The position numbers were made by a program, and so were the translations under genes. 64,000 nucleotides of DNA. It comes from Citrobacter enshiensis. Lineage in GTDB: Bacteria > Pseudomonadota > Gammaproteobacteria > Enterobacterales > Enterobacteriaceae. Shown in pieces: positions 5,210 to 61,777 of the stretch (the stretch's first letter is position 1; each line of letters opens with the position of its first letter). Below the pieces are notes generated by a model. That model was not told the origin of the DNA. It made no database searches and saw nothing but the letters and a program-made list of their open reading frames with translations. The DNA lies in contig NZ_CP119862.1 of assembly GCF_029338175.1 (NCBI RefSeq), positions 1,736,001-1,800,000 of the forward strand, in the 5' to 3' direction.

Positions 5210-6456
5210 CAGGAGTTCGCTCCTTTTTTGCCATATTCTCGCGTAGTGGCTTTACCGTCAGTTGGGGTTGCGGATTGCGCCTCCACCACTTCAACTTTCG
5301 CCCCTTCCGTCAGACGGTCAATACCGTCGGTGACCACACGATCGCCAACGGACAATCCGGCGCTAATCACCACTTTCTGACTGTCCTGAATACCGGGTTT
5401 CACCTGATGTTTGCTGACCCTGTTTTCGTCATTCAATACCCAGACAAAATGGCCTTCGTTACCCATTTGTACGGCGGCAGTCGGAATTACAACGGCATTG
5501 TGCTCGGTATCAACCAGCATTCGCGCATTGACGAATTGATTAGGGAACAACGTATCATCCTGATTATTAAAGCGCGCTTTAATCTTAATGGTACCGGTGG
5601 TGGCATCAATCTGGTTGTCCAGGCTCAGCAATACCCCTTCGCTCAGCTTTTGCGCGTTGGTGCGATCCCAGGCCTCAACCGTGACGGTTTTCCCCGCTTT
5701 TTGCGCCTGCACCACCGTGGCGATATCGCTTTCCGGCAGGGTAAAAATCAGATCGATAGGGTGTGTCTGAGTGATAACGACGATCCCGGTGGTGTCGCTA
5801 CTGGCGATCTGATTACCGATATCCACCTGTTTCAAACCGACGCGACCGTCAACCGGTGCGGTAATGCGGCTCCAGTCAAGCTGAAGTTGCGCGCTGGCGA
5901 CGCTGGCCTCATCAGCTTTGATCGTTCCCTGGGTTTCGCTGACCAGCGCCTGCTGGGCGTCCAGCTCCTGACGAGAAACGAGATTGGTTTTCGCCAGTTG
6001 TTGAAAGCGGGCTAAATCACGACGGGCATTCGCCAGTGTGGCGTTGTCTTTGGCTAACTGTCCCTGCGCCTGGGCTAACGCAACCCTGAACTGGCTGGGA
6101 TCAATTTCCGCCAGCAGATCGCCTGCTTTGACCTGTTGCCCTTCCTGAAAGTGCAGCGCCATCAGTTGACCGTCCACGCGGCTACGCACCGTCACCGTAT
6201 TGGCCGCCGTCACGGTTCCCAGCCCGGTCAGATAGCGTGGCACCGCTTGTTCTACGGCGGTCGCAGCCTGAACTGGCGCTAACGGGCCGGCGCGCATACC
6301 GCGTCGGCCTTGCCCGGCGGGGTGCTGTGCGTGCCCGGTGGCGCCCGGCGCTGTTCCCTGTGTTTCTCCACGACTGTGCCAGAACCAGACTGCGGAAATG
6401 GCCGCCGTAGCGACCACAATAGCGAGCACCCAGCGGAATTTGTTACTGCCTTTCAT
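5209..6456 (-). CDS. mdtA: Membrane fusion protein MdtA
   Basis: Periplasmic adaptor (HlyD/MFP family) linking MdtBC to TolC. The ATG at 6456 gives the 415-aa form starting MKGSNKFRW, as in E. coli, and is preceded at a proper distance by AGGATGAG. An in-frame upstream ATG at 6510 adds 18 residues that no homologue I know has, so I reject it. There is a signal-anchor helix at about residues 8-29, a lipoyl-like half-motif at about 95-125 ([20 protein letters not shown]), an alpha-hairpin around 130-200, then beta-barrel and membrane-proximal domains. There is no lipobox, so it is membrane-anchored rather than a lipoprotein. It is the first gene of the operon. Confidence 0.96.
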
Positions 6457-11107: not shown

Positions 11108-14100
11108 CAGATCCAACGGCTGAGCGTCGGCGATGATATCGCCATAAATCAGGTCAATCCCGATGCCGGAAAGCGCATCCATGATAACCGGCGTCTGCAC
11201 CGGACCGACAAGCGTTTTGATCCCCAGTCGCTGTGCATTCCCCTGGATGATTGAAACCAGCATTTCGTCCATCAAATTACCGTGCAGGCTGGTTGCGAGT
11301 TCGCTTTCAAGCAGCAGATAGTCAGCCATGTGCGGGGTCAGATGGCTGAAGAGTTCCAGATCGCGACCGACCTGGCTGAAAATCATCCGGCATCCCACCT
11401 GGCGCAATTTTTGAATCGCAGAAGCGGTCTCCGTTGGATGTGTGATCATGACATCGGCTGGCACAACCAGGTGCAGCAGACGCGCCGGAAGCGGGCTGTG
11501 TTCAAGGTGTGTCAGCAACTCATCAATCAGGGTCGCGCTGCTTAACCCGGCGGCGGAGAGGGGGAGGGCGACGCTCAGCCCCTTGCTGGCAACCGACGGG
11601 GCTGCGTGATGGAAAAACTCATGCAGTACGCGGCGGTCGAGCGCATGATTGAGCGCCGGGTCGACCAGTCCCGCGCGGAAGGACTGCTCTTCCATGACGT
11701 CGCCTTCACTGGTCCACAGGCGTAATGAAATCAACCAGAAACTGCATGTTTCAGGGATCCGTGGCGATGCCACCCCCCGCGCCATCATCAGCAAATGATG
11801 GTCTTTAATCATATGCCACTGCTCATCCAGCGACATCGTTCCCCGTTCTTTGTGAGCCTCTTCTTGCTGAGGTTCATACACAGTGACGCGACCGCGGCCA
11901 TTGTTTTTGGAGGCGTAACAGGCGATGTCAGCCTGTGACATGACGTCCGTTGTCAGATAATTGCGTTCGTCAATCCGCGTTATCCCGGCGCTGGCGCCAA
12001 TCCGGTGCAGGCGTCCTTCCCACATAAAGTGATAATCGTTGATGGCGTTAATCATTCGCGTTGCGATGAAACGGGCGCTTTCGATATTACAGTCTGGCAG
12101 TAACAGCCCAAACTCATCCCCGCCCAGCCGCGCCAGCATGTCGCTGGAACGGAGCATACTGAGCATGAGCGCCGAGATCTCGCGCAACAGCGCGTCACCG
12201 GCGGCATGGCCCGCACTGTCGTTTACGGCTTTGAAACGGTCAAGGTCAATAAAGACCAGGGCGTGGCGTTGGTGGGCGTCGTGAACCGTTTGCAGCAAAC
12301 GCTTCAGGTGGTTTTCGAAGCTGACCCGGTTAGCCAGATGGGTCAGGGCATCATGGGATGCGCTGTAACTGAGCTGGCGCAGCATTTTACGCGATTCAGT
12401 GACGTCCTGGATAACCAATACCGACCCAATATTGCCGCCGTCCAGCGTACTGAGCGGGGTAATGCTGTAATGGATATCGTAGTTGCCGCCGGTACGGCAA
12501 TGCAGCACCACATCCTGCTCAATCGCGGAGCGGGACATGTCCGCGCTATAGATGTTTTCCATTAACGGACCGTTGTCGCCAAAGGTGATGCGCAGCACAG
12601 TCAGTAGCGGCACCCCCATTGCGTCTTTTTGCTGCCAGCCACTCATCTTTTCCGCCACCGGGTTCATAAAGGTGACGTTCATGTCGACGTCAATACAGAC
12701 AACGGCTTCCCCGATGGAGTCCAGCGTAATGTGCAGGCGCTCTTTTTCCTGGTATAGCGCTTCGTTCAACTGCTTCACTTCGGTCATGTCCATATTGATG
12801 CCGAGTAAGCGTTCCACTTCGCCGTCTTTATTTAATACCCGGTTTGCCAGCGAACGGATATGGCGGACACCACCTTTTACCGCAATACGAAACTCCAGTT
12901 TGAAGGGACGGCGGGCGGTGAGCGCGTCCCGGATCACTCTTTCTGCGTGATCGCGATCTTCTGGCAATACGCAGTCATACCAGACTTGCCAGGAGGGTTT
13001 GATATGTGGCGGGAGCTCGTAGAGATCGAACATGCGCTTATCCCAACTGAACACGTCGGGCTGCAACTCCCACTCCCAGATGCCAATGCCGCCCGCTTCA
13101 TTCGCCAGTGTTATCCGCTCCATCAGGCGTTTATTCACCCATTCGGTCTGCTTCAGGTCGTTGATATCTTCAATCTGCGCAATAAAGTAGAGCGGGGTGG
13201 TATCGTTATGGCGCACCAGCGAGACGGTCAGCAGCGCCCACACCACTTCTCCGGCCCGGGTGTAGTAACGCTTTTCCATCGAGTAACTGTTGATATCGCC
13301 GCGAACCAGCATATTGAGCTGTTCAAGATCGTTATTGAGATCTTCCGGCCAGGTCAGTTGCTGGAACGTGAGCGCGCGTAGCTCATCCTGGCTATAGCCA
13401 AGAAACTGGCACAACGCTTTGTTCGCTTGCAGCCACTGGCCTTCGGTACCGACCAGCGCCATGCCGATGGCGGAGTATTCCATGGCGTTGCGAAAGCGCG
13501 CCTCGCTTTCGGAAATGTGTTTACGCTCAGTCCGAAACGCATACATCACCATGGTCATCACGTTGGCGGGCAGCAGAATCATTAAAAACGGCAGCCAGGG
13601 GACGTTCGCCATGATGTGGGTTTTGGGCGTTGAGAGCAGAGAGGGATCGACGGCCATCATTAATGACACCATCATCACGGTCGCGAGGAAGATTAAAAAT
13701 GCTTCCACACGTGGCAGACGTACCGCGCTCCACATCAGCAACACGATGACGCTGGTAAACGGCCACGGCAGATATTGCATTGAGAGCCAACTCAACACCA
13801 GCGTGACGGTCAGCGTCAGCAAGGTCTCAAGCAATAAACGCGGGTCACGGTGGCGCAGCAGATAATGCGGTTTAAACAGCAAACCCAGGGGAACCAGCGC
13901 CAGCGCACCGATTGATTCAGAAAGAACCCAAATAAGAAATGCTTTCAGCGGCGTGCCTTCCGGCACCAGCAACCAGACAAGGAGTCCACCCACCAGAGGC
14001 GGAACCACCGCGCTGCCTATCGCCAGCCGGATCCAGTCGCTAAGATTTTGCAACGGGTTATACCAGGGCAGGAGTTTACGCAGCAATAGTGCGCCGATGA

Positions 14101-14404
14101 CGGCTTCGAAAATGTTAATTGCGGTGTAGGTAAAGTTCAGTGAGGTGTCAGGGAAAAGCAGTAAAGCCGCGCCGAGACTGCCCAGCGAGCAGAAGAGCGC
14201 AATACCTGGCCACATGCGACCCGCGTGACGGTAAAACGCCACCATCATAATGGAGGTCGGGAACCACAAAGGCGCCAACTGTGTACCAAAACGCGATAAT
14301 TCGAGCGAAAACAGCGTAAAGATAAAGGCCACCAGGCTTAAACTGACAAGACGCAGTAAAGGGTGGGGGAGGGTAACTAAAACATGTTGGAATTGTTTAC
14401 TCAT
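11075..14404 (-). CDS. dgcE: Diguanylate cyclase DgcE (YegE) with MASE1, PAS and degenerate EAL domains
   Basis: Makes cyclic-di-GMP that drives curli and biofilm expression in E. coli. The ATG at 14404 gives 1109 aa starting MSKQFQHVL, as in E. coli YegE (1105 aa). The in-frame ATG at 14443 is rejected. Order: membrane MASE1 domain (about 1-300), three PAS/PAC domains (about 300-670), and GGDEF (about 680-840) with the intact active-site motif LGGDEFGLL. A C-terminal EAL-like domain (about 860-1109) lacks the E-x-L catalytic signature and is probably inactive. No frameshift. The 3' end overlaps convergent alkA. Confidence 0.95.
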   Translation of the reverse strand: MSKQFQHVLVTLPHPLLRLVSLSLVAFIFTLFSLELSRFGTQLAPLWFPTSIMMVAFYRHAGRMWPGIALFCSLGSLGAALLLFPDTSLNFTYTAINIFEAVIGALLLRKLLPWYNPLQNLSDWIRLAIGSAVVPPLVGGLLVWLLVPEGTPLKAFLIWVLSESIGALALVPLGLLFKPHYLLRHRDPRLLLETLLTLTVTLVLSWLSMQYLPWPFTSVIVLLMWSAVRLPRVEAFLIFLATVMMVSLMMAVDPSLLSTPKTHIMANVPWLPFLMILLPANVMTMVMYAFRTERKHISESEARFRNAMEYSAIGMALVGTEGQWLQANKALCQFLGYSQDELRALTFQQLTWPEDLNNDLEQLNMLVRGDINSYSMEKRYYTRAGEVVWALLTVSLVRHNDTTPLYFIAQIEDINDLKQTEWVNKRLMERITLANEAGGIGIWEWELQPDVFSWDKRMFDLYELPPHIKPSWQVWYDCVLPEDRDHAERVIRDALTARRPFKLEFRIAVKGGVRHIRSLANRVLNKDGEVERLLGINMDMTEVKQLNEALYQEKERLHITLDSIGEAVVCIDVDMNVTFMNPVAEKMSGWQQKDAMGVPLLTVLRITFGDNGPLMENIYSADMSRSAIEQDVVLHCRTGGNYDIHYSITPLSTLDGGNIGSVLVIQDVTESRKMLRQLSYSASHDALTHLANRVSFENHLKRLLQTVHDAHQRHALVFIDLDRFKAVNDSAGHAAGDALLREISALMLSMLRSSDMLARLGGDEFGLLLPDCNIESARFIATRMINAINDYHFMWEGRLHRIGASAGITRIDERNYLTTDVMSQADIACYASKNNGRGRVTVYEPQQEEAHKERGTMSLDEQWHMIKDHHLLMMARGVASPRIPETCSFWLISLRLWTSEGDVMEEQSFRAGLVDPALNHALDRRVLHEFFHHAAPSVASKGLSVALPLSAAGLSSATLIDELLTHLEHSPLPARLLHLVVPADVMITHPTETASAIQKLRQVGCRMIFSQVGRDLELFSHLTPHMADYLLLESELATSLHGNLMDEMLVSIIQGNAQRLGIKTLVGPVQTPVIMDALSGIGIDLIYGDIIADAQPLDLLLSTSYFAIN

Positions 14405-14744
14405 TACCGCGTTATCCGAATAGCCCGTACCGTCACGGAACACCCGGACGCGTCAGTTTTTATCTGTGGTTATGCTAGTACAAACAATTGACCATTTATA
14501 GGCCAACTGCTCATAAAATGACACGATTAGGTTAATAATTCCTTACGATTGGAAATAATTTTCCGGCCTGCTTTAAAGTTGACCGTTTTAATTTGCGAAA
14601 GGGAAAAGTTGGGGCGTAATTTAGCAGCCGCTGCGTCATCTGCTATCTCGACTGGTATCGCGCGCCTGAAATCCCTATAATTGCCGCGTTTGGCGTTTCT
14701 ACGCCGCCCTCCCTAACATCCAGGTTAATCAGGTCGCTAAATTT
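14405..14744. other. dgcE-udk divergent intergenic region
   Basis: These 340 AT-rich bases lie between the divergent starts of dgcE and udk. They must carry both promoters, but I cannot pin down a convincing -35/-10 pair by eye. No ORF, repeat or RNA gene is visible. Confidence 0.5.
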
Positions 14745-15386
14745 ATGACTGATCAGTCTCATCAGTGCGTCATTATCGGTATCGCTGGCGCGTCCGCTTC
14801 CGGCAAAAGTCTCATTGCCAGTACCCTTTATCGTGAGTTGCGTGAACAAGTCGGTGATGCACATATTGGCGTTATTCCCGAAGACAGCTATTACAAAGAT
14901 CAAAGCCATCTGTCGATGGAAGAGCGCGTAAAAACCAACTATGACCATCCGAATGCGATGGATCACAGCTTGCTGTTTCAACATCTGCAAACGCTCAAAC
15001 GCGGCTGTGCGATTGAACTGCCGGTGTATAGCTATGTTGAACATACCCGAATGAAAGAAACGGTTCGCGTCGAGCCGAAAAAAGTCATCATCCTGGAAGG
15101 CATTTTGCTGCTGACGGATGTACGGTTACGTGAAGAGATGAATTTCTCTATTTTTGTTGATACCCCGCTGGATATCTGTCTGATGCGTCGCATCAAGCGC
15201 GACGTCAATGAGCGCGGCCGTTCTATGGATTCGGTCATGGCGCAGTATCAGAAGACCGTACGTCCGATGTTCCTGCAGTTTATCGAACCGTCTAAACAGT
15301 ATGCGGACATTATTGTGCCGCGCGGTGGTAAGAACCGCATCGCTATCGATATTCTGAAAGCGAAAATCAGTCAGTTCTTTGAATAA
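14745..15386 (+). CDS. udk: Uridine/cytidine kinase Udk
   Basis: Phosphorylates uridine and cytidine to UMP and CMP in pyrimidine salvage. It is 213 aa, the E. coli length, with the P-loop [11 protein letters not shown] at residues 11-21 and near identity throughout. It is the first gene of the rightward group udk-dcd-asmA. Intact. Confidence 0.98.
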
Positions 15387-43091: not shown

Positions 43092-43129
43092 CAGTATCCT
43101 GGTAGCTGTAGAGCCAGTGCGGTAGCGTG
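43092..43129 (+). promoter_or_regulatory. JUMPstart upstream of the O-antigen operon
   Basis: The block CAGTATCCTGGTAGCTGTAG...GCGGTAGCGTG matches the JUMPstart consensus; the ops core has GCGGTAGCGTG with T in place of the first G. It lies 76 bases before manC. RfaH recruitment is expected by family knowledge. Confidence 0.85.
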
Positions 43130-44642: not shown

Positions 44643-46022
44643 ATGTCCAAGCTAACCTGTTTTAAAGCCTATGATATTCGTGGAAAATTAGGTGAAGAGT
44701 TAAATGAAGATATTGCATATCGCATTGGACGTGCGTATGGCGAATTTCTAAAACCCAAAACAATAGTGGTGGGTGGTGATGTACGTTTGACCAGTGAGAG
44801 CCTGAAGCTTGCATTGGCAAATGGCCTGATGGATGCCGGAACTGACGTGCTGGATATTGGTCTGAGCGGGACGGAAGAAATCTATTTTGCAACTTTCCAT
44901 CTTGGTGTGGATGGCGGCATAGAGGTTACAGCAAGCCATAATCCTATGGATTACAATGGGATGAAACTGGTTCGTGAAAATGCGAAACCGATCAGCGGTG
45001 ATACCGGGCTGCGTGATGTTCAGCGTTTGGCGGAAGAGAATGATTTTGCGCCGGTTGAGCAAAATCAACGTGGCAACTATAAGCGGATCTCTGTTCTGGA
45101 TGATTACGTTGATCACCTGATGGGCTACATTGATTTTGCGAGCTTTACTCGCCCAATGAAATTGGTGGTTAACTCCGGAAATGGGGCAGCAGGTCATGTG
45201 ATCGACGCTATTGAGCAGCGTTTTAAAGCTGCAAATGTTCCGGTTACTTTTATTAAAGTACATCATCAACCAGACGGTACTTTTCCAAATGGTATCCCTA
45301 ACCCACTATTGCCAGAATGCCGGCAGGATACTACCGATGCTGTAAAAGCGCATGGCGCAGATTTAGGCATTGCGTTTGATGGCGACTTTGACCGTTGTTT
45401 CCTGTTTGATAGTCAGGGCCAATTTATTGAGGGCTACTATATTGTTGGTTTGCTGGCTGAAGCATTCCTGCAAAAAGAACCTGGAGCAAAAATTATCCAT
45501 GATCCTCGCCTGACATGGAACACAATTGATATTGTGACCAAAGCAGGTGGTGTGCCGATCATGTCCAAAACTGGCCATGCTTTTATCAAAGAGCGTATGC
45601 GTAAAGAAGATGCTGCTTATGGTGGTGAAATGAGTGCGCACCATTATTTCCGTGATTTTGCCTATTGTGACAGCGGTATGATTCCATGGTTGTTGGTGGC
45701 TGAACTAATTTCCATGAAAAATAATACATTAGATTCGCTTCTTAATCATCGAGTCAGCAAGTTTCCTTGCAGTGGTGAAATTAATTATAAGGTTGTTGAT
45801 GTTGCTCCGATCCTTGATGAGGTTGAAATTGCTTATGAAAATTCCACGGTAATTAATAAAATTGATGGTTTGTCTTTTGAATCACCAGAATGGCGTTTTA
45901 ATATCCGTTGTTCAAATACAGAATCATTATTGCGCTTGAATGTCGAGGCAAAAGGTGATCAAGAAATTGTCAAGCAAAAAGTTACAGAAATAGAGTCAAT
46001 AATAATGAGGTTTCACCAATAA
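44643..46022 (+). CDS. manB: Phosphomannomutase ManB
   Basis: Interconverts mannose-6-phosphate and mannose-1-phosphate. The ATG at 44643 gives 459 aa starting [14 protein letters not shown]; the earlier TTG at 44625 is not needed. The phosphoserine loop is [13 protein letters not shown], the metal loop [11 protein letters not shown] and the sugar-binding loop GEMSAHHYF. It is the only manB in the window and so probably serves both the O antigen and colanic acid. Its stop overlaps the wzm ATG (TAATG). Confidence 0.95.
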
Positions 46023-46816
46023 TGCGTAGTCTTATTAATGGATTATGGAGTTACCGAGGATTTATTTTAGGTAGTATTAAACGTGAGTTTCAATCTAAAT
46101 ATAGAAACTCATTATTAGGTTTTCTGTGGAATATTTTAAATCCACTGGCAATGATTATCATCTATACTGTGATTTTTTCTCAAGTCATGCGGGCAAAATT
46201 ACCAGGAGTCGATCATTCATTTGCATATAGCATTTATCTTTGTGCTGGAGTATTAACTTGGGGATTGTTTTCTGAAATAGTATCACGTTCACAGGTTATG
46301 TTTGTTGATAACGGAAACTTATTAAAGAAGATAAATTTCCCCAGGGCATGTATTCCGGCAATTATAGTTGGTAGTGCTTTACTTAATTTTATTATCGTTT
46401 TTTCTATATTTTGCGCTTTCTTACTGATTAGTGGCTTTTTCCCTGGTATTGTTATACTTTCTCTTATTCCAATCATTGGGATATTAATTCTATTCGCAAT
46501 TGGCCTTGGCATGACTATTGGCGTGCTTAATGTATTTTTTAGCGACGTTGGCCAATTTTTTGGAATATTTTTGCAGTTTTGGTTTTGGCTAACACCAATT
46601 GTCTACTCTGTAGCGATTTTGCCTGAAAACCTGAGAGAATATATTTCATTTAATCCCATGTCCGGCATTGTAATGGCCTGCCAGACAGTATTGGTCAAAG
46701 GTACCCTGCCAGATTGGAATAGTATATTGCACGCGACAATAATAGGGTTATTACTTTGTATGTTAGGTATGCGTTTATTTCAACGCAGGGCGGCAGAAAT
46801 GGTGGATGAATTGTAA
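46022..46816 (+). CDS. wzm: O-polysaccharide ABC transporter permease Wzm
   Basis: ABC-2 type membrane subunit that exports undecaprenyl-linked O polysaccharide. It is 264 aa, with about six membrane segments after an N-terminal amphipathic start (FILGSIKREFQSKYRNSLLGF). Intact and strongly AT-rich. It is coupled by TAATG overlaps to manB upstream and wzt downstream. Its presence, with no wzx/wzy pair in the locus, places this O antigen in the ABC-transporter pathway. Confidence 0.95.
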   Translation: MRSLINGLWSYRGFILGSIKREFQSKYRNSLLGFLWNILNPLAMIIIYTVIFSQVMRAKLPGVDHSFAYSIYLCAGVLTWGLFSEIVSRSQVMFVDNGNLLKKINFPRACIPAIIVGSALLNFIIVFSIFCAFLLISGFFPGIVILSLIPIIGILILFAIGLGMTIGVLNVFFSDVGQFFGIFLQFWFWLTPIVYSVAILPENLREYISFNPMSGIVMACQTVLVKGTLPDWNSILHATIIGLLLCMLGMRLFQRRAAEMVDEL

Positions 46817-48041
46817 TGGGTTCTATCAGTGTAAGCAATATCGGTAAAGCATTTAAGCAATACCCTAATCGCTGGGCGCGATTAATTGAATGGTTTTGTC
46901 CTGGAAATATAATTAAGCATCGATTAAAGTGGGTATTGCAGGATATTAACTTTACAGTTAGTCCTGGTGAAGCTGTTGGGATCATCGGGATTAACGGTGC
47001 AGGTAAAAGTACTCTTCTGAAAATGATTACCGGTACAAGTCAACCCACTAAAGGAAGTATTCATATTTCTGGAAGAGTGGCGGCTCTGTTGGAACTGGGG
47101 TATGGGATTTCATCCTGACTTCACGGGGCGCCAGAATGTTTACATGGCGGGCCAATTAATGGGCTTACATGCCGAAGCCATTAGCAATCTGATGCCAAAA
47201 ATTGAAGAATTTGCTGAAATTGGTGACTATCTTGATAGTCCTGTGAGAGTGTATTCTAGCGGTATGCAAATGCGCTTGGCATTTAGCGTTGCCACCGCTG
47301 TACGACCAGATGTGCTAATTGTCGACGAAGCACTATCTGTAGGTGATGATTATTTCCAGCATAAAAGCTTCGAAAGAATCCGTGAGTTTCGGCGTCAAGG
47401 GACGACACTATTAATTGTATCACATGATAAACAAGCGATTCAGAGTATTTGTGATCGAGCGATTTTGCTAAATGCTGGGCATATCGAGATGGAAGGAGAG
47501 CCTGAAGCTGTAATGGATTACTACAATGCTTTGCTCGCAGCAAAACAAAATCAAAAAGTAGAACAAAAAACCACATCGGAAGGTAAAATCCAGACAATAT
47601 CTGGTACGGGCGAGGCTGAAGTCTCAAAAATATGTTTACTAGATCAGCATAAAAATACCGTTGAGTTTATCAATGTTGGTCAAGCTGTTATTTTGCATGT
47701 TGAAGTTAAGGTCAATGCAGATATTCCCCCGGTTAGTATTAGGTTATGGCATTAAAGATCGTTTGGGACAAGTTTTATATGGGACTAATACTGATTTTAA
47801 AGATAAAGTTATTGAGAATGTGAAGGCTGGATCTATTGTTGTCTATGATTTTAGTTTTGACGCGAACCTCGGGCCCGGAAGTTATTCGATACAAACCGCA
47901 CTCGTTAGTACTGATAGTCATTTAGTCAATAACTATGAATGGCGTGATTTAGCTTTGCTTTTTAATGTAGTGAATATTGATAAAACTAAATTCGTTGGTT
48001 TAACTTGGCTCGACCCGAAAATAGGGGTTTATGAAAGATGA
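46816..48041 (+). CDS. wzt: O-polysaccharide ABC transporter ATPase Wzt with C-terminal substrate-binding domain (frameshifted)
   Basis: ATPase partner of Wzm. Walker A is GINGAGKST (about 59-67), the signature is SSGMQMRLAF, Walker B is VLIVDEALSVGD and the switch His is in IVSHD. The C-terminal part (about 250-407) is the extra beta-sandwich that in E. coli O8/O9a Wzt recognises the capped non-reducing end of the glycan. It ends FVGLTWLDPKIGVYER. An extra G at 47097-47100 and another at 47731-47732 split the frame; the joined length is about 407 aa. It overlaps the next gene by 4 bases (ATGA). Confidence 0.9.
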
Positions 48042-49250
48042 CTTTTATTTCATATGCACAAAATTTAGAAGATGTTGTTCTCTGGAAAGCACTAAAAAAT
48101 ATAGAAAATGGATTTTATATTGATGTTGGTGCCAATGATCCACTTATTGACTCTGTGACTAACTCGTTTTACAATAATGGTTGGCATGGTATAAATATTG
48201 AGCCAATAAATACACATTTTAAAAAATTAGTGTTGGAACGACCAAGAAGATATAAATCTAAATTGTGCAATAAGTGAGTCTAAAGGGAATTTAGATATTT
48301 GGGAGTGTGAAGTGCGTGGTTGGGCTACTCTTGACCGCCATGTTGCAGAGACCCACGAAAAAAATGGTCATATAGGCAAATGGCATAATGTTGAAGTTAA
48401 AACTTTAGCTGAAGTGTGCGCAGAATATGAACCTGAGAATATTCATTTTTTAAAAATAGATGTCGAAGGTTTAGAAATTTCAGTCCTTAAAGGAAATGAC
48501 TGGAGTAAATATCGACCATGGATTGTTGTCGTAGAAGCAACATTCCCAAATACCCAAATTGACAGATATTCAGATCTCGAAGAACTTCTTGTCGCTGAAA
48601 ATTATGTTTTTGCATATGCCGATGGCTTAAACCGTTTTTATGTTTCTGCTGAACATATAGAACTTCTTCCGTCGTTGAAATACCCACCTAACATTTTTGA
48701 TGACTACCAAACATATAGTGAGTATTCAGCCTTGCAGGAGGTGAAAATTTTTGAGAAAAAAAATATTTCCTTATTGCAAGACAATGTTAAAATTACGGAA
48801 GAATACCATTTGTTATCTCAAAAAAATTTGAGTTTATCTGCAGAAAATGAGAGGGTTAGCATAGCTAATAACCTGCTTTCTTTGGAAAATGAGAAGCTTA
48901 GTGTAACTAATAATGAGCTTTCCAAAAAGTATGAAGTTATTTTAGAACATGTTAAAAAACTTGAGCATGAGAATGCTATAACAAAGAAATATGTGGGTGA
49001 AATTTTAAATAGTACTTCATGGCGTATTACGGCACCGGTAAGATTGATTGGACAATTAAAACATGGGAAGAAGAATGATTCCACACTTAAACATTCGTGG
49101 CTATCAAAAAAACTGATAAGAAAGTTAATTAATCAAATAAATAAACATCCTAAACTAAGATATCAAATAGTAAACATTATAAAAAAAATAGGCCTTTATT
49201 CCATAGTCCGTTCTGCTTATTTAGGTGTTTTTATAAATAATGCATCCTAA
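48038..49250 (+). CDS. FkbM-family methyltransferase fused to a long coiled coil; candidate chain terminator/ruler (frameshifted)
   Basis: Residues about 1-200 are an FkbM-type SAM-dependent methyltransferase: FYIDVGANDP (SAM loop), NNGWHGINIEP and the family motif LKIDVEGLE. Residues about 230-317 are rich in Glu, Leu, Asn and Ser with heptad spacing (LSAENERVSIANNLLSLENE, then EKLSVTNNELSKKY) and read as a coiled coil. Then comes STSWRITAPVR, a tail motif seen in many surface-glycan enzymes, and a basic C-terminus. An extra A near 48247 breaks the frame after residue about 70; the joined protein is about 403 aa. The position right after wzt is where WbdD lies in E. coli O8/O9a, and WbdD also joins a methyltransferase to a coiled-coil ruler. 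The role as terminator is inference. Confidence 0.75.
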
Positions 49251-49395
49251 AACTACATTTCCTGAAAATGAAATGGTTTCTTATAAAAGTAATACAGTTT
49301 TACCGTTTGCAACAATTCATTCGCTAAGTGTTGATGAGTTGCATAATAGAATCAAAAATGAGCTTAAAGCTACCACAGAAGAGCGAGGTGAGTAG
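49240..49395 (+). CDS. Small coupled ORF, 51 aa, function unknown
   Basis: ATG at 49240 overlaps the end of the FkbM gene by 11 bases. The ORF reads MHPKTTFPENE...HSLSVDELHNRIKNELKA...ERGE and its TAG overlaps the GTG start of the glycosyltransferase (TAGTG). This is the same coupling style as the rest of the operon, which argues for real translation. I recognise no family. It is mostly polar, with a predicted helix SVDELHNRIKNELKA. It could instead be the 5' part of the glycosyltransferase separated by an indel. Confidence 0.5.
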   Translation: MHPKTTFPENEMVSYKSNTVLPFATIHSLSVDELHNRIKNELKATTEERGE

Positions 49396-52300
49396 TGAAT
49401 TACTGCAATCAATACTCCGAATTAGAAAATTTCAAAGGCCTGCGTGTTGCTGTACTAACCACAGAGTCAGCCAAGGGTGAAGTCGGTGGCGCTGAACGGT
49501 TCTATCAAGGTTTATTAGCTGGATTAATAGAAATCGGTTGTGAAGCTGAAATTGTTCCTGTGATTGCCGATGAGTCCTCCTTTGAACAAATAAAAAATAA
49601 TTATCAATATTGCCGTGAATTGGACTTGAGTCGTTATGATGCCGTAATTTCGACCAAAACTCCAAGTTTTGCTGTTAATCATCCGAATCACGTAATGTAC
49701 CTGGTTCATACGGTTCGCGTATTTGATGATATGTTTTACGAAAGCTTCCCTGAATGCGATACGATGCGTTTAGCTGAACGGGCAATGCTTCATCGATGGG
49801 ACTTTGATGCCATTAGTAAAATCAAGGCAAAGTTCTGCATTGGTCATGAAGTATCCAAGCGTCTATACCGCTGGCGAGGAATACACTCAGATGTTATTCA
49901 TCCTCCATTAGGTGTTAACGGGTTTAAACAGGGCGAAATGGGGGATTACTTTTTCTTACCTGGAAGACTGCACCCATGGAAACGTGTTGACCTCGCGATT
50001 AATGCTATTAAGGCATCTAACTTACCTTTAAAATTAGTTATTGCGGGTACTGGTGAGGCTGAAGAAAAATTAAAAGAATTGGCTGGTTGTGATGCCAGAA
50101 TTCAATTTGTAGGACGCCTTAGTGATGAAGAGCTTTTAGATTATTATGCTAATGCCCTTGCGATTGCGTTTGTGCCCAAAAAAGAGGACTATGGATACGT
50201 CACACTTGAAGGTTATGCCAGTGGTAAACCTGTAATCACCTGCACTGATTCTGGCGAACCCACATACTTCGTTAAGCATAAAGAAACTGGTATTATTTGT
50301 GAGCCGACTAGTGAATCTTTGAGGGAAGGTTTTGAATGGATCTTTAACAATAAAGATCTTGCAGCAGTGATGGGGGGGAAGGGCTATGAAAAAATCCAAG
50401 GGATGTCATGGCCAATTGTGGCTAAACAATTAGTATCTGCTGCAATGGCTCCGAATATTGAGCTAAAACAATTGCCTATAAATGTCACTATTGCTGATAT
50501 GCAACCAATCGATCCTCCTGTTGGAGGTGGTCGCCTACGCTTACTTGGGGTTTATCACGACCTAGGCGATAATGTTAAAGCTACGTATGTGGGTTCTTAT
50601 GATTGGCCAGGAGAAAATTATCGACGTCATAAATTGAGCCCAAATTTAGAAGAAATTGATATTCCATTAAGTCAAGAACATCATCTTGCGGCCCAAGAAT
50701 GGGCTACTCAGGCAAATGGTAAGACAGTAATCGATGTTGTCTTTAGCCAGCAAGGACATTTGTCATCTGATTATTTGTCAGGTGTTATAGATAATATCAA
50801 AATGGCAGATGTAGTCGTCTTTTCTCACCCTTGGGTTTATCCTCTCATTGACCCAAGTTTATTGCAGGGAAAAGTTATTATTTATGATTCGCAGAATGTA
50901 GAAGGTTATTTGCGTGCTCAACTATTTGATGAGAGCAATATGGCCGAATTAGCTGCGATCCGACAGGTTATTTCTGATGAGTATTTACTAGGCCAGCGAG
51001 CAGATCTCATTCTTGCATGTTCACAAGAAGACTTATTACGTTTTAATCGTATTTATGAGTTTTCACCAGAAAAAATGCGAGTTGTTCCTAATGGAGTGAT
51101 GGCTTTTACACGTCCTGTTCCAGGGGATAATGAGCGGTTAGCGGCTAAGAAAGCATTAAATTTTTCCATTGACAATCGTTTAGCTATTTTTATTGGCAGC
51201 GCATATGGGCCAAATGTCGAAGCTGCTAAATTCATTGCAGAAGAATTGGCACCAGAAGTTCCTGAGGTTACCTTTATCATTGCCGGTGGAGTTAGCACTG
51301 TGGTTGGCAAGGTTAAATGTAAGAACGTACATTTGACAGGACCTCTTAGCGATAAAGATAGAGACTTGTGGCTAACTGCAGCGGATTTGGCCGTAAATCC
51401 TATGTTTTCGGGTTCTGGCACGAATATTAAAATGTTCGACTTTATGTCCATGGCTTTACCAACAGTTACAACAAAAATTGGTGCTCGTGGTATAGATACG
51501 GCTGGATTAAATGCAATGCTTGTTGTTGAACCAACTGTAGAAGCTTTTAGTTCTGCTTTACATAATTTGCTTGATCATGAATATTGTAGGGCTATTGGTG
51601 TGGCAGCGCGCCAATGTGTTGAGAATAGCTATTCTTGGGAACGAATCTCGAATATTGTCGGGAAGATGTTATCTTCACGTGCTGAACTCGCTAATCAACC
51701 ACAGCCCTTTTTCTCTGTTGTTATTCCAAGTTATGAACGCCCAGAGCAATTGCTTGATCTTATGCATTGCTTGCAAGGTCAAATTGAGCGTGATTTTGAA
51801 GTGATCGTAATAGATCAAAGTGCGGTTCCCTGGTCGGAATCTGAACGAAATTTCGGCTTCCCACTTTGCTACTATCATTCTCCCGTAAAAGGTGCTGTGG
51901 CAGCGAGAAATACCGGGGCAATGCTAGCTCAAGGCAAAGTAATTGCCTTTACTGATGATGATTGCTGTCCTGACTCGAATTGGTTGGCAAATGCACGTAA
52001 ATATTTTAATATCCCAGATATTGTTGGTGTAGAAGGTCAAATTACGTCAGACCATCACGGTGATGAAAACTGGCGTCCTGTAACAAATGTCGGCTTTGAA
52101 GGCATTGGTTTTATGACCGCAAATTTAATGGTTAGAACTGCAGTATTTCATTATCTTGGCGGGTTCGACCTACAATTTGATCGTCCCCATTTCCGTGAAG
52201 ACACCGATTTTGGATGGCGTATGCAAAAAATTGGGATGGTACCTTATGCAAAAGATGTAGAGGTATTCCACCCTGCGCAACCACGATCAAAAGAACGAGA

Positions 52301-52496
52301 GTCACTAGCAAGCCGTTCGAATTTTTTCCAGAAAGATGCTTTGCTTTATCGCAAACATCCTGAAAAGTATCGTGAACTCTTTGTATTAGAGAAACATTAC
52401 GCAATTACTCCAGGTTTTAAAGAAAATCTGCTATTGGGTTTCGAAAAAGAGAATGAAACGGTTCCTCAGTGGATGGTTGATTTTTTAAATTCGTAA
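49395..52496 (+). CDS. Trimodular glycosyltransferase (GT4-GT4-GT2), 1033 aa
   Basis: Probable polymerase or main-chain transferase of the O polysaccharide. Module 1 (about 15-350) is a GT4: AERFYQGLLAG, LPGRLHPWKRVDLAI, and E-x7-E region KKEDYGYVTLEGYASGKPV. Module 2 (about 370-770) is another GT-B/GT4-like unit: GGGRLRLLGVYHD, IIYDSQNVEGY, FIGSAYGPNVEAA, NPMFSGSGTNIKMFDFMSM. Module 3 (about 772-1033) is a GT2: SVVIPSYERPEQLL, FTDDDCCPD (DXD-type), GGFDLQFDRPHFREDTDFGWRM. The GTG start at 49395 is set by TAGTG coupling. Intact. Multi-domain transferases of this kind polymerise glycans in ABC-dependent O-antigen loci. The linkage specificity cannot be read. Confidence 0.85.
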   Translation: MNYCNQYSELENFKGLRVAVLTTESAKGEVGGAERFYQGLLAGLIEIGCEAEIVPVIADESSFEQIKNNYQYCRELDLSRYDAVISTKTPSFAVNHPNHVMYLVHTVRVFDDMFYESFPECDTMRLAERAMLHRWDFDAISKIKAKFCIGHEVSKRLYRWRGIHSDVIHPPLGVNGFKQGEMGDYFFLPGRLHPWKRVDLAINAIKASNLPLKLVIAGTGEAEEKLKELAGCDARIQFVGRLSDEELLDYYANALAIAFVPKKEDYGYVTLEGYASGKPVITCTDSGEPTYFVKHKETGIICEPTSESLREGFEWIFNNKDLAAVMGGKGYEKIQGMSWPIVAKQLVSAAMAPNIELKQLPINVTIADMQPIDPPVGGGRLRLLGVYHDLGDNVKATYVGSYDWPGENYRRHKLSPNLEEIDIPLSQEHHLAAQEWATQANGKTVIDVVFSQQGHLSSDYLSGVIDNIKMADVVVFSHPWVYPLIDPSLLQGKVIIYDSQNVEGYLRAQLFDESNMAELAAIRQVISDEYLLGQRADLILACSQEDLLRFNRIYEFSPEKMRVVPNGVMAFTRPVPGDNERLAAKKALNFSIDNRLAIFIGSAYGPNVEAAKFIAEELAPEVPEVTFIIAGGVSTVVGKVKCKNVHLTGPLSDKDRDLWLTAADLAVNPMFSGSGTNIKMFDFMSMALPTVTTKIGARGIDTAGLNAMLVVEPTVEAFSSALHNLLDHEYCRAIGVAARQCVENSYSWERISNIVGKMLSSRAELANQPQPFFSVVIPSYERPEQLLDLMHCLQGQIERDFEVIVIDQSAVPWSESERNFGFPLCYYHSPVKGAVAARNTGAMLAQGKVIAFTDDDCCPDSNWLANARKYFNIPDIVGVEGQITSDHHGDENWRPVTNVGFEGIGFMTANLMVRTAVFHYLGGFDLQFDRPHFREDTDFGWRMQKIGMVPYAKDVEVFHPAQPRSKERESLASRSNFFQKDALLYRKHPEKYRELFVLEKHYAITPGFKENLLLGFEKENETVPQWMVDFLNS

Positions 52497-52529: not shown

Positions 52530-53568
<1,039 letters not shown>

Positions 53569-53569
<1 letters not shown>

Positions 53570-54467
53570 TGTCTGGCGCCGGAAAACATGCCCTTGTAAC
53601 AGGGATTAACGGGTTTACCGGCCGCTATGTGGCAGCGGAGTTGTCCGCTGCCGGATATCGGGTTTTTGGTCTTGGGGCTGCGCCATTTGATGATCCTGAC
53701 TATTATCAGGTCGATCTTACTGATATTTCTGGGTTGACTGACACTATTAATCGCATTAAACCTAATGTAGTCATCCACCTTGCGGCAATAGCTTATGTTG
53801 GGCATGGTGATGCGGATGCTTTCTATAATGTCAATCTTCTGGGTACCCGCAATCTATTACAAGCTTTGAGTTCCAGCCTGGCACCTCTGGGATGCTGTAC
53901 TGCTTGCCAGTAGCGCAAATGTCTATGGCAATGGTACTGCAGGAAAGTTAAGCGAATCGACAGTCGTCAATCCAGCAAATGATTATGCGGTGAGTAAGTT
54001 GGCGATGGAATATATGTCTCATTTGTGGATGGATAAGCTTCCAATATTTATAACCAGGCCATTTAATTATACCGGTGTAGGTCAAACAGATAATTTTTTA
54101 CTACCCAAAATAGTCAAGCATTTCAAAGCTAAATCACCCACAATTGAACTTGGCAATATTGATGTATGGCGTGACTTTACTGATGTCCGTGCATTAAGCA
54201 AAGCGTATGTTAAATTACTGCATGCCAAACCTTTTGGCGAAGTAATAAATATTTGTTCTGGGCGAACATACTCCTTAAGAAAAGTAATTGAGTTGTGTGA
54301 AAAAAATAACAGGGCATCATCTTGATATTCAGGTGAATCCTGCTTTTGTTCGCGCGAATGAAGTAAAAACTCTGAGCGGTGACACATCTAAACTTCAAGT
54401 ATTTATCCCTGACTGGATGTCCCCACCACTTGAGGTCACTTTGCGCTGGATGTTGGAAAGCGAGTAA
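53569..54467 (+). CDS. rmd: GDP-4-keto-6-deoxy-D-mannose reductase Rmd (frameshifted)
   Basis: SDR reductase giving GDP-D-rhamnose, about 298 aa. It has GINGFTGRYVA (NADP motif), HLAAIAYVGHGD, the Ser of SSANVYG and catalytic YAVSK. Breaks lie at about 53870-53891 and 54300-54307; the last part reads DIQVNPAFVRANEVKTLSGD. Fcl-type motifs (HRGMVGSA) are absent, so the product is D-rhamnose rather than L-fucose. The stop overlaps the next ATG (TAATG). Confidence 0.88.
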
Positions 54468-58218: not shown

Positions 58219-58641
58219 CTCAAAAAGTGCATGGAACTAAAACGGGTCTATTTGCACTATGGCTTCTAATTATATGTGTTCATTGATTTAGTTTAACGTG
58301 AGCTACTATTTCAGGTTTGTATTGGAAATTATTAAAAAGTTAACTTCATCGCTGATATAAGTTTCCCTCTGCATCTGGCTCACCCCTTAATAACATATGT
58401 ATCATGAGGGGGTAATTAATGATGAGGAGTATTTTATACTGTCATTTTTATATTTTTTGGAGGGAGTGATATTTGATGAATATGGTATTTATAGATATAT
58501 GTGAAAATTTCGGCTAATAAAGTAGGTGGGTGTTTCTAAAAAAAATGGTTTAAACTGTTTACTCTTAATCTATCTGGGGCTGTGTGTGCATAAAGAATTA
58601 GAGTTATTTTTCTATATTTTAATTGGTGGGGATATTAGTTG

Positions 58642-60267
58642 ATGCGATTTAACTTTTACGGTCTACTTTCTATTGCTATCGGATTTATATTTTTCACCCT
58701 TTGTGTAGGGATCTCACCACTTAATGTCACAAATATATCTTTTTTAATGAATGGAGATGCTGCTCAGCATTGGATTGGTTGGGAGTTTTTTAGGCATACA
58801 CCTTTACTTCAGTGGCCAATTGGTAAAAACTATGGATATGGAATTCAGTTGCATAACTCAATCGTTTATACTGATTCAATACCTATATTTTCTGTCTTTT
58901 TCAAAATATTCTCTGGCATGGTGCCAGTGGAATTTCAATATACTGGGCTGTGGTTACTGCTCTGCTTTTGCCTGCAGGGATTTTTTTCATTTACATTAAT
59001 AAAGAAAATAACTGGGAATGATATTTATTCACTACTGGCAAGTATCATTTTTGTGATTTCGATTCCATTTATTGATAGAATTGGAGGGCACTTCGCTTTA
59101 GCTGCTCATTGGTTGATTCTCTGGGCGCTCTGCCTATATTTTAATCGTGAGTTTACATTTAAAAATTGGATCGCATTATTAATTTTTTCCTCATGGGTCC
59201 ATGCTTATCTTCTGGCTATGACTTTGACTATTTGGATTTTAGATATAACTAATAAAGTCTATCAGAAAAAAATATCAACGAAAGCGATTATCTTGCACAT
59301 TGTATTGTCATTTTCATTATTATTATTGGCAATGTACTCTATTGGATATTTTACTATATCAGGGAGTTTCTCATCAGGAGGGTTTGGGTATTACAAGCTA
59401 AACTTGAACTCAATAATTAATCCCTATTATGGACCATTTTCATCGATTATAAATCCGTTACCTGCAGGTAAGGGAGAGTATGAAGGGTTAAATTACATTG
59501 GTGCTGGTGTGATGTTATTGCTGGTTTTCTCGATTTTTGGTGTAAAACGCACAAAAAAAAATATCAGCGATGAGTTATCTACACATATCCCACTGTTATT
59601 GCTATCGATAGCATTAACTATTTATGCATTAAGTAATGTCATTAGTTGGGGCAATGATATTTTATTGGAGTATTATATACCTAACTTTATGAAGAGTATC
59701 ACTAATACTTTTAGAGCGTCAGGAAGATTTTTTTGGATTGTTTACTATTTGATATTTACTGTATCTATTGTTGGGATTTATAAATATTTCAAATTTCGAA
59801 CTGCTATTATTATTTTGTTTTCTTGCGCAGTTTTACAGATTTACGATGTCCATCATGTTTTAAATGTTAGAAAAAATGGCTTTGAAGTTTACCATCATGG
59901 GTACACACTTAATGGCTCAAATTGGTCGTATGTCGCAAAAAATTATGAGAAAATACTCACCCCCTCTCCTTGGTTATTTGGTGATGATTATTTAAAATAT
60001 GCCTATTTTGCATCCGTAAATAATATGAAAATAAGCTTTGGTTATTTTGCAAGGGTTAATATGGATGTTTGGAACAAACAAACCTTAGATATTGGCAAAG
60101 CTATAAGTACAGGAGATTTGGAGGAAGGTGCTGTTTATTTATTTAAGGATAAAACTCAGTATGAGAAAGTATTGGGTAGGGTAAATCAGAGAACATATAA
60201 TTTCGAAGATAATGGCGTTTACGTGATTGGATTAATGAAGTCACCTATGTCATACACTAAATCTTGA
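58642..60267 (+). CDS. Polytopic membrane protein, DUF6311-like; candidate serotype-specific glucosyltransferase
   Basis: 541 aa, ATG at 58642. About 10-12 hydrophobic segments fill residues 1-400, followed by a soluble periplasmic tail of about 140 residues. The early loop after TM1 carries NGDAAQHWIGWEFFR and LLQWPIGKNYGYG, the shape of GT-C enzymes with an acidic residue in the first loop. The position just before gtrA-gtrB suggests it transfers glucose from undecaprenyl-phosphate-glucose to the O polysaccharide, although in phage cassettes the specific gtr gene usually follows gtrB. DUF6311 assignment is from memory of its motifs. Very AT-rich. Intact. Confidence 0.7.
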   Translation: MRFNFYGLLSIAIGFIFFTLCVGISPLNVTNISFLMNGDAAQHWIGWEFFRHTPLLQWPIGKNYGYGIQLHNSIVYTDSIPIFSVFFKIFSGMVPVEFQYTGLWLLLCFCLQGFFSFTLIKKITGNDIYSLLASIIFVISIPFIDRIGGHFALAAHWLILWALCLYFNREFTFKNWIALLIFSSWVHAYLLAMTLTIWILDITNKVYQKKISTKAIILHIVLSFSLLLLAMYSIGYFTISGSFSSGGFGYYKLNLNSIINPYYGPFSSIINPLPAGKGEYEGLNYIGAGVMLLLVFSIFGVKRTKKNISDELSTHIPLLLLSIALTIYALSNVISWGNDILLEYYIPNFMKSITNTFRASGRFFWIVYYLIFTVSIVGIYKYFKFRTAIIILFSCAVLQIYDVHHVLNVRKNGFEVYHHGYTLNGSNWSYVAKNYEKILTPSPWLFGDDYLKYAYFASVNNMKISFGYFARVNMDVWNKQTLDIGKAISTGDLEEGAVYLFKDKTQYEKVLGRVNQRTYNFEDNGVYVIGLMKSPMSYTKS

Positions 60268-60500: not shown

Positions 60501-60863
60501 ATGCTAAAATTATTTACTAAATATACATCTATAGGTGTGCTTAATACAGCAATCCACTGGTGCATATTCGCTATTTGTATCTATAAATTGGGCACCAATC
60601 AGATCGTGGCAAATCTCGCTGGTTTCGTTGTTGCAGTCAGTTTTAGTTTCTTCGCTAATGCACGCTTTACATTCAAAGCATCCACTTCGACAATGCGCTA
60701 TATTTTATATATTGGGTTTATGGGAGCTCTTAGTGCTTTAATTGGTTGGGGGGCTGATATATGTTCCCTACCTCCACTGGTCACTATGATTACTTTTTCT
60801 ATAATTAGCTTGGTTTGTGGTTTTTTATATTCAAAGTTTATTGTTTTTAGAGTTTTTAAATGA
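60501..60863 (+). CDS. gtrA: GtrA-family bactoprenol-linked glucose flippase
   Basis: 120 aa with four membrane segments, starting [20 protein letters not shown], as in Shigella/Salmonella phage and E. coli GtrA. The ATG at 60501 is preferred to the frame start at 60435. GtrA is thought to flip undecaprenyl-phosphate-glucose to the periplasm. It overlaps gtrB by 4 bases (ATGA). Confidence 0.93.
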
Positions 60864-61777
60864 AAATATCACTGCTTGTTCCAGTATTAAATGAAGAAGA
60901 TACAATACCTATATTTTATAATAAAGTTAGGAGAGATGACGCACTAAAGAAATATGAAGTGGAAATAGTGTTTATCAATGATGGAAGTAAAGATTCAACA
61001 GAATCAATAATAAATGCACTCGCTATTGCTGACCCACTGGTGATGTCTCTGTCCTTTAGCCGAAACTTCGGAAAGGAGTCCGCTCTCTTTGCCGGTCTGA
61101 CACATGCCTCTGGTGATGCTTTAATCCCTATAGATGTTGACCTTCAGGATCCTATAGAAGTAATTCCGCTGTTAATTGAGCGGTGGGAATCAGGTGCAGA
61201 TGTGGTGCTGGCAAAGCGTTCAGATCGCGCATCTGATAGTCGATTAAAGCGAAAAACAGCCGAATGGTTTTACAAGCTACACAATAAAATTAGTAATCCC
61301 CCCATTGAAGAGAATGTAGGTGATTTTCGCTTAATGTCTCGTGAGGTTGTCGAAAACATCAAGCAGATGCCGGAGCGCAATTTATTTATGAAGGGCGTTC
61401 TTTCCTGGGTTGGCGGACGTACAGATATTGTTGAATATGCTCGGGCTGAACGTGTGGCTGGTAGTTCAAAATTCAATGGCTGGAAATTATGGAACCTGGC
61501 ACTGGAGGGTATTACCAGTTTCTCAACTTTTCCCCTTCGGATCTGGACTTACATAGGTCTATTTGTTGCGGGATTGGCCTTTATCTATGGTATCTGGATG
61601 GTCGTTGATACCTTAGCGTTTGGTAACCCTGTCAGGGGATATCCTTCATTAATTGTATCTGTTCTTTTTTTAGGGGGGGTTCAATTAATTGGTGTCGGAG
61701 TTTTAGGTGAGTATATTGGTCGTATTTATATTGAAGTAAAACAGCGACCTCGATATATTCTAAAAAAGAGAAAATAA
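60860..61777 (+). CDS. gtrB: Bactoprenol glucosyltransferase GtrB
   Basis: 305 aa GT2 enzyme that makes undecaprenyl-phosphate-glucose. It has [33 protein letters not shown] (DXD-type), [12 protein letters not shown], then two C-terminal membrane segments (about 232-254 and 266-288). Intact and very close to the E. coli protein. Confidence 0.95.

Follow-up and report, generated by a model that had tools for sequence, protein, structure and literature searches.

Directly behind the wzt gene of an O-antigen locus of Citrobacter enshiensis lies a gene (48038..49395, + strand) coding for an FkbM methyltransferase head, a long helix and a C-terminal tail related to that of the chain terminator WbdD. 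Positions are those of the window, the whole stretch of 64,000 nucleotides that was analysed (contig NZ_CP119862.1, positions 1,736,001 to 1,800,000). Judging from its sequence, the gene quite probably codes for a chain-terminating O-methyltransferase with a coiled-coil ruler, i.e. the chassis of WbdD with another catalytic head. The original prediction had given it the place and the job of WbdD, performed by another methyltransferase family, and had called it a possible new type. The tail homology, the heptads of the coil, the linkage to a Wzt with a cap-binding domain and a largely kept cap site speak for this, while capping and length control as such go beyond sequence evidence. Regarding novelty, the absence of a kinase is not new, since the E. 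coli O8 WbdD is described as a simple methyltransferase (PMC3482155), and the type also occurs in other genomes.

Head, coil and tail of the FkbM gene

The start codon of the gene lies inside the stop of wzt (ATGA at 48038-48041), the 4-base overlap noticed originally. In the assembly the gene passes through three broken frames (48038-48276, 48240-49250 and then to 49395). A joined protein of 403 amino acids (aa) ending at 49250 had been proposed. Actually, no single open frame encodes it, as a stop at 48274-48276 ends the first frame and the remainder is read in another one. The proposed end is too early, because similarity to the C-terminus encoded in the sister locus L029 continues in a third frame up to a stop codon (49393-49395) at which the next gene begins. 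Locus L029 is intact, and between manC and the second GT4 gene its genes are arranged as in the window.

The head (48038..48713, + strand) extends over two frames and was delimited with Pfam Methyltransf_21 and a structure model. Both pieces match this family as predicted, the first one (48038-48274) with an E-value of 3.6e-4 and 21.1 bits, below the cut-off of 22.7, and the second (P0001, 48240-49250) with 1.3e-19 and 71.4 bits (PF05050, same cut-off); P0001 also exceeds the cut-off of NCBIfam TIGR01444 (50.6 against 37.7 bits). No kinase family is listed for either piece or for the L029 protein, again in agreement with what had been claimed, and Methyltransf_21 is the sole Pfam methyltransferase family on the window, L029 and L048 proteins. 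The model of L048, an intact relative from Advenella faeciporci, has the class I S-adenosylmethionine (SAM) methyltransferase fold, with a Z of 13.2 to the FkbM structure 2py6, a value shared by other SAM methyltransferases. Foldseek matches are SAM methyltransferases too, with low template modelling scores. WbdD is absent from the VIA list, which is no evidence either way. The A2 profile had a single match among the PDB sequences, 8gl3 (0.0021), over the coil and tail positions 228-407, and no methyltransferase was matched in this search.

The proposed ruler is a long helix of eleven heptads (48714..49007, + strand). AlphaFold2 modelled the second piece with one helix at residues 159-256 of P0001 (mean predicted local distance difference test, pLDDT, 83.7), confirming a helix before the STSWRITAPVR motif but with 98 residues instead of the about 85 first estimated. 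In L048 (394 aa, pLDDT 87.8) a Rossmann-like domain is followed by a 56-residue helix and, from the SWR motif onward, by four short helices and a terminal one. The window coil has I, L, V or F at eleven consecutive positions spaced seven apart and 8 of its 10 Asn in one other heptad register. Neither was reached in any of 20000 shuffles, in a test picked post hoc after inspecting the sequence. The same count on 39 globular-head stretches gave a longest run of 5, and it is unremarkable for L029 (run 5) and the O9 WbdD (run 4). The Asn-rich register beside the unbroken I/L/V/F register makes 48714-49007 an unusually polar and regular core. Among related FkbM loci the distance from head to motif varies from 35 to 392 residues, a range that fits a tunable spacer without proving it. 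The window helix would measure about 147 angstrom (98 residues x 1.5) versus about 200 angstrom described for the WbdD coil (PMC6286764), so that somewhat shorter chains might be expected.

The tail (49011..49395, + strand), with its last part in the third frame, carries STSWRITAPVR, a version of the SxSWRxTxPxR motif of these FkbM proteins. WbdD-like proteins had been matched only in their C-terminal part by the first family search. A profile of 115 positions built from 37 FkbM-protein tails alone (fktail) detects the window piece (8e-13, profile positions 1-71) and also the C-termini of the WbdD proteins of E. coli O8 (L251, 7.5e-11) and O9 (L252, 6e-7). In syntenic loci it matched all four WbdD-type and three of four methyltransferase-only proteins. 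Of 99 proteins encoded immediately after Wzt_C places, 14 were matched. The best E-value among controls was 0.19 (1000 shuffles plus 10 reversals) and, in another run, 0.22 (900 shuffles). As far as sequence goes, the FkbM-protein tail is homologous to the membrane- and polymerase-docking region of WbdD, whose C-terminal region is described as mediating membrane contact and polymerase recruitment. Among 62 FkbM proteins encoded next to wzt, the tail was seen by profile in 50 and the motif in 48.

L030 contains a gene (5441-6007, + strand) for a 188-aa protein consisting only of coil and tail (tail profile 2e-22), located between manB and a glycosyltransferase gene; here the FkbM gene is elsewhere and Wzt has no cap-binding domain. 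In L151, from E. coli NT1N31 (order manC-cpsG-wzm-wzt-gmd), the same slot is occupied by a 496-aa methyltransferase (13531-15021, + strand) that the fktail profile does not match.

Position behind wzt and the cap-binding domain

The gene after wzt in the syntenic loci codes for FkbM plus coil and tail, for a methyltransferase plus coil (with or without tail) or for WbdD. Four aligned FkbM proteins served as the query for a scan of named genomes, from which we kept the best 80 of 554 loci; 59 of these are directly behind a Wzt with cap-binding domain (-4 to +45 bases). With five loci of the window's family added the number is 62 of 85; all 62 adjoining Wzt proteins match the C-terminal-domain profile and 46 of the loci have the 4-base overlap. 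Seven further loci have one gene in between. By record titles the Wzt-adjacent loci belong to Pseudomonadota, Myxococcota, Bacillota, Campylobacterota, Thermodesulfobacteriota and Spirochaetota, some being metagenome bins. As a base rate, 115 gammaproteobacterial genomes gave 102 FkbM-domain places, of which only 2, both with weak FkbM matches, were within 2 kilobases behind a Wzt_C place; this sample and that of the 80 loci were drawn in different ways. Four loci (L049, L068, L071 and L073) have FkbM proteins of more than 1000 aa directly behind Wzt. The two of them that were scanned, L049 and L073, carry glycosyltransferase domains, suggesting fused terminator and polymerase as described for the K. 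pneumoniae O7 terminator (PMC11231755).

The window wzt (46816..48041, + strand) is also broken into three frame pieces (46816-47118, 47102-47755 and 47661-48041), coding for the ATPase part and then for the cap-binding part (about 47600-48041). The C-terminal domain announced by the original prediction is there, with Wzt_C detected on two pieces, one of them over the cut-off (3.9e-26 on the last piece). In the Aquifex aeolicus protein this domain is described as binding 3-O-methyl-mannose in a pocket of Leu300, Thr346, Ala348 and Trp362, where Asn313 contacts the ring oxygen and His350 the C2 hydroxyl, and the change Trp362Leu as essentially abolishing lipopolysaccharide binding (PMC9445017). 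The window Wzt retains Trp362, Asn313, Ala348, His355 and Val380.

We compared the Wzt proteins of 51 of the 62 Wzt-adjacent FkbM loci (380-560 aa, ATPase domain found) with those paired with other enzymes. Trp362 was present in 48 of 51 FkbM-paired and 10 of 10 methyltransferase-paired Wzt, while all five kinase-paired ones had an alignment gap, a distribution that speaks for O-methyl rather than methylphosphate as the cap. His350 was found in none of the 51 FkbM-paired proteins (Val in 43) versus 7 of 10 methyltransferase-paired ones (Val in none), with a Fisher value of 3e-7; no more than 3 to 5 of the contrasts are independent, and a tree-corrected sign test cannot reach significance. The lack of His350 gives a hint of a cap other than 3-O-methyl, but relatedness among these Wzt proteins may also account for it. 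Kinase labels came from Pfam (L035), a PDB match (L039), NCBIfam (L252) and similarity (L038, L040), and methyltransferase labels from Pfam (L036, L155, L157, L164, L251), record annotation (L151), a local profile (L162, L167) and similarity (L034, L037).

The 14 best matches of the window cap-binding piece are all FkbM-paired Wzt, in a set where these are 51 of 66, and for the ATPase piece the E. coli O8 protein came second. Within its own family and E. coli, the L029 cap-binding domain has a mean identity of 47% to methyltransferase-paired and 28% to kinase-paired domains, and it reaches 62% with FkbM-paired Wzt elsewhere. In the cap-domain tree most FkbM-paired sequences form one group, which also takes in two methyltransferase-paired sequences, and three FkbM-paired sequences fall elsewhere. 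This clustering by label is not specific to the cap domain, because the ATPase domain clusters by label too. The outliers of the set are two Legionella loci (L065, L085), with FkbM behind a Wzt that has neither the methyl-lid Trp nor Asn313 nor His355.

Locus, proposed mechanism and competing explanations

The window belongs to a single-contig genome of 4.9 megabases, and Rfam matches to SIB and isrN probably point to an Enterobacteriaceae source. A JUMPstart element (43092..43129, + strand; Rfam RF01707, 39.8 bits, gathering 35) precedes the O-antigen locus, whose genes come in the order manC, manB, wzm, wzt, the FkbM gene, a 1033-aa glycosyltransferase gene, gmd, an rmd-like gene and two GT4 genes; gnd lies downstream of them in the window. 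The export permease gene wzm (46022..46816, + strand) matches ABC2_membrane at 4e-24. The 1033-aa glycosyltransferase (49395..52496, + strand; Pfam GT4, GT4 and GT2), equal in length to its L029 counterpart, is the proposed polymerase. The gmd gene, whose product name was taken from the syntenic locus L151, and the rmd-like gene (52530..54325, + strand) are both broken; they suggest guanosine diphosphate-D-rhamnose or a related sugar, and hence an O-polysaccharide probably of D-rhamnose. A DUF6311 protein (58639-60267) and a GT2 gene (60860-61777) between the O-antigen genes and gnd perhaps serve a side branch. Megablast of E. coli genomes with 46022-52496 gave no match, and neither did a distant DNA search of them with the L029 FkbM gene. 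A distant search with 46022-49999 matched 526 of 5426 E. coli genomes, in no case across more than 80% of the query; the matches listed fall in wzm and wzt.

From these elements we infer a methylation reaction, a ruler action and a docking partner. The 1033-aa glycosyltransferase, docked on the C-terminal tail of the FkbM protein, would elongate the polysaccharide at the membrane, and the coiled coil would keep the head at a distance from the membrane. A chain end reaching the head would be O-methylated and stop growing, and the cap-binding domain of Wzt would recognize the methyl group, leading to export. Such a product would be chemically ordinary, as a D-rhamnan with terminal 3-O-methyl-D-rhamnose is described for Campylobacter fetus serotype B and a 3-O-methyl-capped D-rhamnose/mannose chain for A. 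aeolicus (PMC9445017).

Several observations weigh against this proposal. The frame of the FkbM gene is broken twice in the assembly. The window coil gave no significant result in two general periodicity tests (3.4-3.7 residues), its values being reached by 3016 of 5000 shuffles in one and 542 of 1000 in the other. In the latter the O9 WbdD passed (0 of 1000), L029 (14) and L032 (32) passed more weakly, and L048 (206) did not. By profile, the tail is missing from twelve of the 62 Wzt-adjacent FkbM proteins, some being cut by a contig end or frame break, and the profile was built from other members of the same set. At the positions of Leu300, Thr346, His350 and Met353 the window Wzt has G, Q, V and D. 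The 59 of 80 loci behind Wzt are not an unbiased rate, because the 80 were selected as best matches to four seeds, two of which were themselves behind Wzt. Finally, at 100 over-cut-off Wzt_C places in 370 gammaproteobacterial genomes (window excluded, one place without downstream open reading frame, ORF) the next ORF had an FkbM match in five cases and FkbM plus coil and tail in one (L175), making the type a minority in gammaproteobacteria, under a simple ORF rule that may misread high guanine-cytosine or broken loci.

It is unlikely that the protein caps the chain with methyl and does not measure it, coil and tail being only a tether and length being set otherwise. RfbT, which methylates a terminal sugar while O1 also includes the serotype without this methyl, would be a precedent, but the eleven unbroken heptads, the spread of coil lengths mentioned above and a tail homologous to that of WbdD, in which chain length is described as following coil length, all favour a ruler. 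FkbM enzymes act on many different substrates and their genes are rarely behind Wzt in general, so methylation of internal or side-branch sugars or of a precursor, with no role as terminator, was also considered; the place behind a cap-binding Wzt, the coil, the WbdD-like tail and the methyl-cap site make it very improbable. We give equally little credit to a decayed pseudogene in this strain. Besides the FkbM gene, four others have broken frames (wzt, gmd, the rmd-like gene and a glycosyltransferase gene), and the methyltransferase gene is described as disrupted in 58 of 191 E. coli O101/O162-type loci (PMC13168486). However, the breaks are scattered over many genes, similarity resumes after every one of them as far as the tail's end and the run of heptads is intact, so that assembly errors, unproven as they are, fit better than decay. 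The L029 counterparts are single ORFs, and decay here would leave the whole copies in other genomes untouched.

Beyond a terminator with an FkbM head, a broader reading can be put forward tentatively, although we hold it somewhat less likely than its opposite. Coil and tail might be a general chassis with swapped cap enzymes (FkbM, Methyltransf_11/25, Methyltransf_24, methyltransferase-kinase and perhaps sulfotransferase), with the cap domain of Wzt co-varying. The FkbM cap might then be other than 3-O-methyl, e.g. 2-O-methyl, because Val or another small residue stands where His would touch the free C2 hydroxyl. Some further proteins are encoded directly behind Wzt_C genes. The one in L173 (1971-6698, + strand; 1576 aa) has a coil-like stretch, an SWR tail start and glycosyltransferase domains, and its N-terminal piece matches Sulfotransfer_1 (25.5 bits, cut-off 22), suggesting a sulfated chain end. 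In L178 (1959-3179, + strand) a 407-aa protein with a 4-base overlap to the Wzt_C gene ends in the SWR tail start; it has no Pfam or NCBIfam match, which leaves its head unassigned. L152, L171, L176 and L179 have Methyltransf_24 heads and the SWR tail start.

If our proposal is true, a class of terminators behind cap-binding Wzt proteins would be recognizable from sequence in six phyla (by record titles), and the methyl or methylphosphate end of an ABC-exported glycan, perhaps even the methylated hydroxyl, could be predicted from the genome. The match between cap enzyme and cap-binding domain would be directly testable with isolated domains, and modular heads and coils could be useful for engineering glycans in laboratory strains.

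Comparison with known terminators

Two candidates for an experimental FkbM case were rejected, namely Xanthomonas campestris WxcB, likened to the WbdD methyltransferase plus kinase (PMC4878081), and C. fetus mat1, described as an acetyltransferase (PMC3887049). In the open-licence literature we found no FkbM head on a WbdD chassis, nor its spread or a matching Wzt change. The A. aeolicus Wzt shares five cap-site residues with the window and differs in four, and its capping enzyme is not named in the portion of the source available (PMC9445017).

RfbT/WbeT of Vibrio cholerae O1 is likewise of the FkbM family (PMC12146696) and described as methylating the terminal sugar, the reaction proposed here; its gene of 861 base pairs is too short for a long coil and tail, and it is not known in this analysis as a length ruler. 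The E. coli O101/O162 methyltransferase has a C-terminal coil and is required for the terminal O-methyl group, according to a 2026 description that, as far as available, does not name its family (PMC13168486). The terminators of K. pneumoniae O4, O7 and O12 are like our proposal in having cap enzyme and polymerase at opposite ends of a coiled-coil ruler; their heads are 3-deoxy-D-manno-oct-2-ulosonic acid (Kdo) transferases or another methyltransferase-kinase, and FkbM is not mentioned in the main text (PMC11231755). The WbdD of E. coli O9/O9a shares with the window gene the slot, the coil and the homologous tail, but combines methyltransferase and kinase, is described as producing a methylphosphate cap and is paired with a Wzt without the methyl-lid Trp.

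Coil-bearing terminators with various heads (PMC11231755), methyltransferase-only heads (O8) and terminal-sugar methylation tied to an FkbM-family enzyme (RfbT) are already known. A close likeness is to the WbdD of E. coli O8 and K. pneumoniae O5, described as lying directly behind wzt, with a methyltransferase head, no kinase, an SxSWRITxPLR tail and a methyl cap as proposed for the window; the O8 head belongs to Methyltransf_25/11 and that of the window to FkbM.
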